DNA from: Colwellia ponticola
Lineage (GTDB): Bacteria; Pseudomonadota; Gammaproteobacteria; Enterobacterales; Alteromonadaceae
Assembly (NCBI RefSeq): GCF_005885605.1
Contig: NZ_SZVP01000008.1
Location: 62,001-126,000 of the forward strand
Length of the DNA: 64,000 bases
Direction: 5' to 3'
Of this stretch, positions 52,673 through 55,007 are shown in pieces; position 1 is the first letter of the stretch; the number at the start of each line of letters is the position of its first letter. The position numbers and the translations under genes were made by a program. The notes under the pieces are model-generated. The model saw only the letters and a program-made list of their open reading frames with translations, did no database searches and was not told where the DNA came from.

Positions 52673-52700
52673 TTAAAATCCGGCCATGCGCCGGATTTTT
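52673..52700. terminator. Bidirectional terminator after the S46 peptidase gene
   Basis: AAAATCCGG and CCGGATTTT enclose a 7-base loop and are followed by T residues on the plus strand; the symmetric stem can also stop the convergent GGDEF gene. Confidence 0.83.
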
Positions 52701-53983
52701 TAATGCAAGTTGGTTGACCTAAGTACTTCAATGCGGTTACGACCATTTTTTTTAGCTTGATACATTGCTTGGTCTGTATCATTAATTAATTGCTCTAAGT
52801 GTTTATGGCGATCACTTAAAGTACAAGCACCAATACTCAAAGTGATCGCTATCTCTTGATTATTTATCGTGAGGCTATTTTTCGCTAACGAACTTTGTAT
52901 ACGACTAGCAGTTTCAATGCCTCCTGCTATATCACAATGAGGTAAAACGATAATAAATTCTTCGCCACCATACCTTGCTAAAAAATCCACGTCGCGTATC
53001 TCTTGGCTGCAAATATTACAAATATGTACCAATAACTGATCACCGAATAAGTGACCAAAATCATCATTTACCTTTTTAAAAAAATCACAATCTAACAACA
53101 GTAAGGTTAATTCAGTACCAGCTCTTCTTGCTCGAGAAAACTCCATATTTGCGCGTTCAAATAAAGCTCTACGATTAGCCACTTTTGTGAGCGCATCTGT
53201 ATTGGATAACTGTTCTAGCACCTTGGTTCTATCCTCAACAACTTCTTTCATTACCGTCAACGAAACCGTGGTATCACTGAGTTTTTTATTCATCGTATTA
53301 AACGCTTGTGCGATGCTATCAAACTCTTGTGAGTGATGAGAAAATTGTATATTTTGGAAGTCACCACTCTGGTTTTTCTCAAAAGCTCGTTTTACTTCAT
53401 TGAGTGACTTTCTGACGATGTAAGTCAGCGAAAAAGCACCAAATAACAGCCCAATAATGCTCGCAACAGATACTGAAATAATTAAAAATGCTTGCCGTTG
53501 AATGGTGTCGTAAATATCTTTTTGCGCAATAGCTGACAGCTGTAATGAATCAGATTGAATAGCTTCTAACTGAGTCATCAGTCTTGTTTTCAAATGCACT
53601 TTTATTACCTCACTGGCATTTTTTAGTTTATTTTTATTGATCAGTGTAAAAAGACTTTTTAAGTTTTCATTTTGACTTTGCAAACTCATTTGAATGGTTT
53701 GCTGCTGTGCGGTTAATTTAGGTGAAGACTGTAATAGGTTTGTTAACGTGACTTCTAGTGCATGCCAATGCTCCAGATTATAATTAGCATCATAAATATT
53801 ATCATTGGCAACTAACTGCTTTAACCTATAAGTTTGATTAGTTAGCTGCTTGGCATAATTATCTCGCTTAAATGCCGTTTCTACAGCATACGATGACCAA
53901 GTAACACTAGCCAACAATAGAATAAATAATAAGCAGCAACTTAACACAAAAAAGAATATTCGTTGCGACAAACTTACATTCAT
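52700..53983 (-). CDS. Membrane diguanylate cyclase (HAMP-GGDEF)
   Basis: A 427-residue inner-membrane signalling protein. Transmembrane segments at about residues 10-32 and 168-192 enclose a helical periplasmic sensor region (about 33-165, Gln/Leu/Asn-rich four-helix type). A HAMP-like linker (about 193-245) and a GGDEF domain (about 260-420) follow. The active site is ARYGGEEFIIVLP, with the LLLDCDFFKKVNDDFGHLFG metal/GTP segment intact, so c-di-GMP synthesis is expected. No clear RxxD inhibitory site directly precedes the GGEEF. It lies 13 bp after the substrate-binding protein gene, on the same transcript. Confidence 0.94.
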   Translation of the reverse strand: MNVSLSQRIFFFVLSCCLLFILLLASVTWSSYAVETAFKRDNYAKQLTNQTYRLKQLVANDNIYDANYNLEHWHALEVTLTNLLQSSPKLTAQQQTIQMSLQSQNENLKSLFTLINKNKLKNASEVIKVHLKTRLMTQLEAIQSDSLQLSAIAQKDIYDTIQRQAFLIISVSVASIIGLLFGAFSLTYIVRKSLNEVKRAFEKNQSGDFQNIQFSHHSQEFDSIAQAFNTMNKKLSDTTVSLTVMKEVVEDRTKVLEQLSNTDALTKVANRRALFERANMEFSRARRAGTELTLLLLDCDFFKKVNDDFGHLFGDQLLVHICNICSQEIRDVDFLARYGGEEFIIVLPHCDIAGGIETASRIQSSLAKNSLTINNQEIAITLSIGACTLSDRHKHLEQLINDTDQAMYQAKKNGRNRIEVLRSTNLH

Positions 53984-53996
53984 AATGAACTATCCT

Positions 53997-55007
53997 TTAT
54001 TGGGAAACATTTACCGCATTAGGTATAACTTGTAGCATGGCTCTACTATCAATGAAGCGTTCAACATCAGACACCTTTTCAAACTCACTCATTTGCGTAG
54101 CAACAGCCCAAATAGCTTGTGATTGCACACTGAAAATTAACGACTGATTAAGCGCTAACTTAAAGATATAATCAGGCCAAACCCATTCAATAAATGCCGC
54201 TGATAAGTTTAATTCTCTCATCACTATTTGCTTAGATTCCTCTTGGTTACCAGCAATGTAATCTGTTGCGATACTGAGCCCTTGAATAATACACTTTGCT
54301 TTTTCAACTAATAAGTTATCGGCAGTCAGTGATATTAAATTAAAACTGAGCGAGTTTAAGTTTTTAGTATTATGTACCTTAACCTTATCCCTTAATTGTT
54401 TTGTACTATTAAAAGCAAAGGGCTCCCAAGGCACAAAAGCATCCACTTCATTATTGATAAAACCATTAATCAATGCTTCAGGTTTATAATAACGCAGCGT
54501 GACATCTTCTGTTGTTAGCCCCTCAAGTGCTAATAAAATACTTACAAAGTATTCACTGGCGGTGCCTTGAATGACACCAATTTTCTTTCCTTTCAAGTCA
54601 AACACAGAGTCTACCTTTTCCGAGGATCTAGAAAGAAATTTCACATCATTATTTGATTGCACAAACATAGCATGGGTCACAAACCCTTTATTGGCTAAAC
54701 TTTGAAAAGCAATAACTGAATCAGAGCTAGTACCAAAATCAACGTCACCAGTCATAACTTTAGTAAATGCTTTTTGACCACCGACGACGTTATCAAACTT
54801 TACATTGACACAGGTTTTGTCAAAAGCACCTATGGCTTTAGCCACGTAAAAAGGAGTAGATAACGGTGTTTTAGACACCGCAATAGTTACCGAATATTTA
54901 GGTTGCCACCAATTCGATTCAGCATATGAATAAAATAAGGCTACGCAAATGATTATCAATAAAGAGATAATTGAGACTGTGAGGATTTTAATAATCGAAA
55001 TAACCAA
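53997..55007 (-). CDS. Membrane-anchored ABC-type substrate-binding protein (NMT1/TauA-like)
   Basis: A 336-residue periplasmic-binding-protein fold. Instead of a clearly cleavable signal peptide it begins with a long hydrophobic helix (IKILTVSIISLLIIICVALF) that probably stays as an anchor. The binding domain shows VAKAIGAFDKTCVNVKFDNV, GDVDFGTSSDSVIAFQSLA, LKGKKIGVIQGTASEYFV and NNEVDAFVPWEPFAF, as in nitrate/sulfonate/thiamine-precursor binding proteins. No permease or ATPase is nearby; instead the next gene encodes a diguanylate cyclase. It may act as a ligand sensor for that enzyme. Ligand unknown. Confidence 0.88.
   Translation of the reverse strand: MVISIIKILTVSIISLLIIICVALFYSYAESNWWQPKYSVTIAVSKTPLSTPFYVAKAIGAFDKTCVNVKFDNVVGGQKAFTKVMTGDVDFGTSSDSVIAFQSLANKGFVTHAMFVQSNNDVKFLSRSSEKVDSVFDLKGKKIGVIQGTASEYFVSILLALEGLTTEDVTLRYYKPEALINGFINNEVDAFVPWEPFAFNSTKQLRDKVKVHNTKNLNSLSFNLISLTADNLLVEKAKCIIQGLSIATDYIAGNQEESKQIVMRELNLSAAFIEWVWPDYIFKLALNQSLIFSVQSQAIWAVATQMSEFEKVSDVERFIDSRAMLQVIPNAVNVSQ

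Follow-up and report, generated by a model that had tools for sequence, protein, structure and literature searches.

Two adjacent genes of Colwellia ponticola, encoding a NMT1/SsuA-type substrate-binding protein (SBP) and a membrane diguanylate cyclase (DGC), probably form one dedicated two-protein transmembrane receptor, in which a ligand bound by the tethered SBP would set the output of the DGC through the helical domain of the latter. This reading is supported by the pairing of the two genes and its conservation, the lack of an adjoining ABC partner, the predicted folds of both proteins, the catalytic motifs of the DGC and the exchange of output domains beside the SBP. Our confidence stops short of certainty because neighbouring SBP and receptor genes can fail as partners: AgtS and AruS are not activated by the SBPs encoded next to them, so that adjacent genes are not always partners (PMC11113362).

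The gene pair and its setting

The pair is located on the minus strand of the window (the whole stretch of 64,000 nucleotides that was analysed), in an assembly of 3.72 Mb. The SBP gene comes first and the DGC gene second, separated by the 13 bp reported in the first-pass annotation (Table 1), which had also pointed to the lack of an ABC permease or ATPase with the pair; indeed, no ABC genes are present among the adjoining ORFs. The outer neighbours are a gene encoding a S46 peptidase and feoB; a search of 51 other loci recovered neither of them next to the pair. The genome contains 39 GGDEF matches in its 3.72 Mb, corresponding to an estimated one gene in about 100.

A 10-pair hairpin (positions 52675-52699 of the window) lies between the convergent S46 peptidase and cyclase genes. 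A T run follows it on the plus strand, and the T run on the minus strand is weaker. The site resembles a terminator only in its pattern; a scan of the region detected three such sites, versus 1.2 in shuffled sequences.

Table 1. Features of the SBP-DGC gene pair (positions in the window).
Feature	Position	Strand	Basis
First gene (TTG start): SBP of the NMT1/SsuA type, 336 aa	53997..55007	minus	ORF, Pfam, model, fold match
Probable membrane anchor: hydrophobic helix at the N-terminus, residues 2-32	54912..55004	minus	predicted continuous helix; hydropathy 2.85
Two-lobed ligand-binding body, residues 38-336	54000..54896	minus	model, fold match, conserved motifs
13-bp gap between the two genes	53984..53996	minus	ORF boundaries
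Membrane diguanylate cyclase, 427 aa, ATG start, second gene	52700..53983	minus	ORF, Pfam
TM1, residues 9-27	53903..53959	minus	hydropathy scan
Predicted four-helix bundle in the periplasm, residues 28-165, where the SBP is proposed to dock	53489..53902	minus	model and fold matches
TM2 region, residues 166-189	53417..53488	minus	hydropathy scan
HAMP-like linker, about residues 190-240	53264..53416	minus	model; marginal Pfam match
GGDEF catalytic domain, residues 261-417	52733..53203	minus	Pfam
Active-site motif GGEEF, residues 339-343	52955..52969	minus	motif read from sequence
RxxD motif, residues 330-333	52985..52996	minus	motif read from sequence

Conservation of the gene pair

The SBP was detected in 31 of 147 relatives (E 1e-25) and the N-terminus of the DGC, without its GGDEF domain, in 26 of 147 (E 1e-5), beside the SBP in 25 of these. 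Among these 25 genomes, the partner is a histidine kinase in one (G067) and is cut by the contig end in another (G026); the 26th match (G096) corresponds to a chemoreceptor-like protein matched only at query positions 141-242. The other six SBP-bearing relatives encode, at the same place, a GGDEF protein with a diverged N-terminus. Named records among the close relatives belong to Colwellia and Pseudocolwellia. At E 1e-40, a SBP profile had matches in 11 of the 369 class genomes and in 39 of the 394 order genomes, each count including the genome of the window itself.

The first-pass annotation had suggested a survey of gene-pair conservation and had named a pair not conserved together as contrary to its model. 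In this survey, the pair proved to be conserved: a membrane receptor gene is present directly downstream of the SBP gene, on the same strand, in all 74 distinct loci of the class, which were retrieved by SBP similarity alone. We therefore rejected a chance adjacency of SBP and receptor, GGDEF genes being no more frequent in the genome than indicated above. The 74 loci correspond to the window, 30 near relatives, 29 plus 11 loci from the order and class profile searches, and L032, L036 and L037; they do not include L031, L033, L034 and L035, whose contigs have the same lengths as those of genomes already counted, nor the named plasmid loci L166-L168. The SBP gene carries an early stop in L159 and one stop inside the matched stretch in L145, the partner is cut by the contig end in L013, and the receptor of L129 is split into a first ORF with HAMP and a second one with PAS-GGDEF-EAL. 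In L024 (L024:1483-3810), from a genome of the same genus, the SBP gene contains nine stops and the following cyclase gene is intact, making this locus a natural case of SBP loss. The broken SBP genes of L024 and L159 count against the receptor reading. The close copies L004, L006, L027, L149 and L154 and the broken SBPs of L024 and L159 were left out of alignment A5, L013 (contig end) out of alignment A2 and L130 (other sensor) out of alignment A4.

The pair also occurs in named records beyond the 74, from Vibrio nigripulchritudo, Vibrio sp. THAF191d and Pseudoalteromonas xiamenensis. In V. nigripulchritudo (L166:3884-6208, NZ_AP027047.1), the pair is borne by a plasmid typed as conjugative, with further GGDEF genes nearby. 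Three-gene signalling clusters were also observed: a further PAS-GGDEF-EAL gene is located upstream of the SBP gene in L128 and L129, and a gene for a HAMP histidine kinase with a Cache domain in L136.

Exchange of output domains

Pfam analysis of 44 in-class partners detected GGDEF in 34 of them (three also with EAL and one also with HD) and HisKA in nine (eight also with HATPase_c), several with receiver or Hpt domains; the remaining partner is the split receptor of L129. The outputs observed beside the SBP comprise GGDEF, GGDEF-EAL, GGDEF-HD, histidine kinase and hybrid kinase, and at least four output changes are needed on the SBP tree, a quick tree that came with long-branch warnings. Whatever the output, hydropathy gives a TM1-TM2 distance of about 140-160 residues in almost every partner; only the second helix exceeds the hydropathy threshold in L147 and L037, L130 contains a longer Cache-like sensor (under its cut-off), and L235, from outside the class, a CHASE3 sensor. 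We regard the association of one SBP family with interchangeable outputs as our strongest indication that the SBP serves as a sensory input. Mirror-tree correlations reached 0.983 between the SBP and the periplasmic part of the receptor and 0.970 between the SBP and GGDEF, such values being expected from common descent.

The substrate-binding protein

The SBP matches the Pfam family NMT1 (PF09084; E 2.3e-17, 64.1 bits for a cut-off of 20.5), which is also matched by 67 of 67 SBP relatives (E 0.001). The model obtained from 67 aligned sequences (mean pLDDT 95.1) predicts a helix at residues 2-32 and a two-lobed body starting at residue 38. Its best solved match is SsuA (2x26; Z 30.3, rmsd 2.5, 282 residues aligned), also recovered by profile comparison (E 1e-21), and TauA (6ssy) was matched with Z 26.8. 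The nearest solved folds are those of sulfonate/taurine-type binders, a weak hint to the ligand of the SBP.

The first-pass annotation had described what resembled an uncleaved N-terminal anchor. The hydrophobic helix is shared by most SBP relatives and probably tethers the protein to the membrane; its uncleaved state is likely, not proven, since a S-Y-A sequence before residue 30 (noted by eye) could be a signal-peptidase site that has no counterpart in close relatives. The mean identity among 18 loci is 26% in the anchor versus 67% in the body, as expected for a simple tether whose sequence drifts. A strict lipobox is present within the first 42 residues of nine of the 67 relatives, and near-lipobox variants were recognised by eye in L126, L127 and L148. 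The distant members L030, L129, L133 and L134 have, by eye, seemingly cleavable signal peptides, indicating that tethering is not universal.

The body contains the conserved motifs IAVS.TPLS.P, S-[ND]-N-D-.-K, WEP and FNL, which hardly vary in two alignments (33 and 67 sequences), as would be expected of a ligand site under selection. This conservation argues against an alternative in which the SBP would modulate the receptor without classical ligand sensing, e.g., as a constitutive structural subunit or, with the opposite sign, as an inhibitor released on binding. Such a role would be consistent with L024, where the DGC is kept beside a broken SBP gene, and with the activation of MbaA that apo-NspS seems able to produce when both proteins are overproduced (PMC8967002), which suggests that the coupling between SBP and receptor need not be ligand-gated only. 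We consider this alternative unlikely.

Search for a cognate transporter

We found three NMT1 matches in the genome: the window SBP, the SBP of L080, which is encoded together with a permease and an ATPase of its own, and a one-chain protein (L081). There are 12 matches to BPD_transp_1 (PF00528), distributed in 11 ORFs. Eight of these ORFs match Sap/Dpp-like (oligopeptide/Sap), CysT, CysW, PotB, PotC, PstA or PstC models, one is located (by eye) between molybdate-type genes, and one, of 542 aa, is accompanied by SBP and ATPase genes of its own. The sole SsuC-like permease, encoded in the L080 operon (SsuC model, E 1.7e-22, under cut-off), has its own adjacent NMT1 SBP and ATPase. Homologues of the L080 permease or ATPase were detected in none of 51 loci at E 0.01, in a test that excluded 30 short loci of near relatives and recovered L080 as positive control. 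The cognate ABC transporter encoded elsewhere, which the first-pass annotation had named as the observation that would contradict its model, was therefore not found in the genome, the 11 PF00528 ORFs being of other types or having their own SBP: neither a permease and ATPase adjacent to the window SBP nor a permease without a SBP of its own came out of the PF00528 search.

These data bear on a possible transport role of the SBP, which would then be a stray or shared subunit that happens to lie in an operon with the cyclase and feeds an ABC permease encoded elsewhere. The SBP does have the fold of the SsuA/TauA transport proteins, and ABC genes stand beside such SBPs in five of the 34 non-class loci (see below). 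The partner is a receptor in all 74 in-class loci, however, many relatives carry a hydrophobic anchor or a lipoprotein signal, the only SsuC-like permease of the genome is provided with its own NMT1 SBP, and homologues of this permease and its ATPase are absent from the 51 loci. We therefore rejected the orphan transporter subunit as the main reading, on the evidence of the locus and of the PF00528 permeases of the genome, and regard it as quite improbable.

Reach of the SBP family

In a search of 398 phylum genomes, a wider profile gave matches in 39; 11 of these belong to the class of C. ponticola and were already counted. The 34 matches from outside the class, in 28 genomes, have a histidine kinase gene downstream in 28 cases, extending the conserved SBP-receptor pairing of the 74 in-class loci to most loci elsewhere in the phylum. 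Of these 28 receptors, 25 were recognised by similarity to kinase partners and three (L239, L246 and L250) by ORF reading and Pfam; Pfam scans covered L218, L231, L235, L239, L246 and L250, the assignment of the other 22 resting on their similarity to two kinase partners. In five of the 34 loci (L225, L226, L228, L247 and L249, all of family f234), the SBP gene sits in an ABC operon with permease and ATPase genes, and no partner is found downstream in L217. The SBP profile consequently does not delineate a pure sensor clade, and the five ABC-linked SBPs are possibly transport relatives of the sensor SBPs.

We also searched PF09084 in 26 genomes of the order and examined the loci of 30 matches. 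Three score at least 409 bits with the SBP profile, and each is followed by a GGDEF gene. The other 27 score 73 bits or less or do not match the profile: eight have ABC genes, seven are fused to GGDEF (one of them also with an ABC ATPase upstream), one is immediately followed by a kinase gene (L212, 62 bits), one has a kinase on the other strand, and ten have neither an ABC nor a signalling partner by the queries used. These 30 loci argue against pairing as a general habit of NMT1 genes; the kinase of L212 suggests that the pairing may reach below the SBP score threshold that we used.

The diguanylate cyclase and its predicted sensor

The GGDEF domain of the DGC is recognised with E 9.6e-47 (159.2 bits), and no EAL match was obtained with Pfam in this protein. 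Residues G339, G340, E342 and F343 of the active-site motif, as well as R330 and D333 of the RxxD motif, which we take from its position to be the product-inhibition site, are invariant in 30 DGC relatives. The presence of both motifs suggests that the cyclase should be active. Of the two-helix HAMP-GGDEF architecture previously proposed, the two TM helices, placed by hydropathy near residues 9-27 and 161-190, and the GGDEF domain hold; HAMP is marginal in the window protein (E 0.061, 14.1 bits for a cut-off of 25), exceeds the cut-off in many relatives, and is matched by 33 of 44 full in-class partners at E 0.001. Among 72 receptor N-termini, it appears in 46 at E 0.1.

The receptor N-terminus (residues 1-246) was modelled from 72 sequences with a mean pLDDT of 89.1. 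The model predicts helices at residues 5-60, 70-85, 92-117, 125-205 and 219-245, arranged as a four-helix bundle that runs on into the two TM helices and precedes the linker. At E 0.1, Pfam detected no sensor family in this region, the matches being limited to the marginal HAMP and a chance Claudin match. The top-ranked fold match is a designed bundle (6egc, Z 15.9). The matches also include NarQ (Z 14.1, 214 residues aligned) and three helical sensors from structures determined with a partner protein: LytSN of the XylFII-LytSN complex (Z 15.1, 120 residues aligned, 2.2 A), and one chain each from QseE-QseG (Z 11.4) and TorS-TorT (Z 11.2). Since a designed bundle ranks first and helical bundles give middling Z scores by their arrangement, the fold match alone says little. 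NarQ binds nitrate itself, and the idea that the DGC likewise senses through its own periplasmic bundle, the SBP being an independent neighbour, could draw on the NarQ match and on the reported neighbours that do not act together (PMC11113362). It is nevertheless very improbable: the pairing is unbroken across the families of the class and holds at the majority of the loci outside it, the two genes overlap or are separated by short gaps while the outputs change, and the outer neighbours of the window pair were not recovered next to the pair at the 51 other loci.

Proposed mechanism and significance

The two-protein sensor advanced in the first-pass annotation gains support from the conservation of the pair and from the outcome of the transporter search. 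According to this two-protein receptor model, the SBP would be exported and held at the inner membrane by its N-terminal helix; a SBP tethered in this way, we propose, would not serve a transporter. Its cleft would close on a small ligand, and the SBP would then dock on the periplasmic four-helix bundle of the cyclase. Docking would shift TM2 and the HAMP-like linker, and this shift would in turn set the GGDEF activity and the local level of c-di-GMP. The uncleaved tether, the physical docking, its dependence on a ligand and the direction of control are the elements that we infer.

We also lean, if only slightly, towards the existence of a class of two-protein receptors across the phylum, in which a NMT1-type SBP, often TM- or lipid-anchored, would be a subunit dedicated to a receptor whose periplasmic domain is short and helical. 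One SBP family would be wired to cyclases, cyclase-phosphodiesterases, HD phosphodiesterases and histidine kinases, perhaps with one shared ligand class. The SBP looks like a dedicated and little-studied sensing part rather than a stray piece of a transporter, and a tether would also explain its commitment to signalling rather than transport.

Signals are known for only a minority of the c-di-GMP enzymes. A recognisable SBP encoded beside its receptor offers a handle, as the ligands of the soluble SBP body could reveal the inputs of cyclases and kinases at once in Colwellia, Vibrio, Pseudoalteromonas, Marinobacterium and further groups.

Comparison with known systems

SBP-activated receptors, including diguanylate cyclases and phosphodiesterases, are known (PMC9602780), and a 2022 review indicates that SBP_bac_3 was the only family of the PBP clan studied until then in c-di-GMP networks (PMC8846402). 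The principle of the SBP receptor is thus already established; for a NMT1-type SBP paired with a separate cyclase, we found no earlier report in a literature search that left most subscription papers outside its range. The accessible part of the repertoire paper PMC9602780, which mentions NMT1 and diguanylate cyclase, describes no such pair, and the accessible parts of PMC9026889 and PMC11575326 contain nothing on one.

The transport SBPs SsuA and TauA share the fold of the window SBP and feed an ABC permease, whereas the window SBP lacks an adjoining permease and is probably tethered. In one-chain NMT1-TM-PAS-GGDEF sensors, NMT1 precedes GGDEF as in the pair, but without a separate helical sensor. 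The same genome encodes such a protein of 649 aa (C1:647197-649146; L081:1198-3147, minus strand), a fused counterpart of the split pair; its SBP part scores 28.6 bits with the SBP profile, versus 450 for the window SBP, and is not close kin.

TorT-TorS resembles the proposed receptor in combining a SBP with the helical periplasmic sensor of a membrane receptor, and a chain of this complex is among the matches of our receptor model (Z 11.2). TorT is a SBP of a different type, and TorS has a larger sensor domain and a hybrid kinase output.

NspS belongs to another SBP family than NMT1. The NspS-MbaA system is known from Vibrio cholerae and also from Sinorhizobium meliloti, and one paper on signalling of this type reportedly bears the words 'independent of their transport' in its title. 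As proposed for the window pair, a periplasmic SBP binds a ligand, associates with a membrane GGDEF protein and controls c-di-GMP (PMC8967002). NspS binds polyamines and MbaA also has an EAL domain, whereas here the SBP is of the NMT1 type and probably tethered, and the cyclase has no EAL match; the window pair therefore falls outside the NspS-MbaA family proper, with its polyamine-type SBP and GGDEF plus EAL receptor.

XylFII-LytS, a system of Clostridium with a histidine kinase output, consists of a SBP acting on a four-helix-bundle sensor, and LytSN is among the best matches of the receptor model (Z 15.1). XylFII binds xylose and is of another SBP family than the window SBP. In this complex, XylFII sits on helices H3 and H4 of the LytS bundle (PMC9769921). 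NspS-MbaA provides the functional precedent for the window pair, through c-di-GMP, and XylFII-LytS the structural one.
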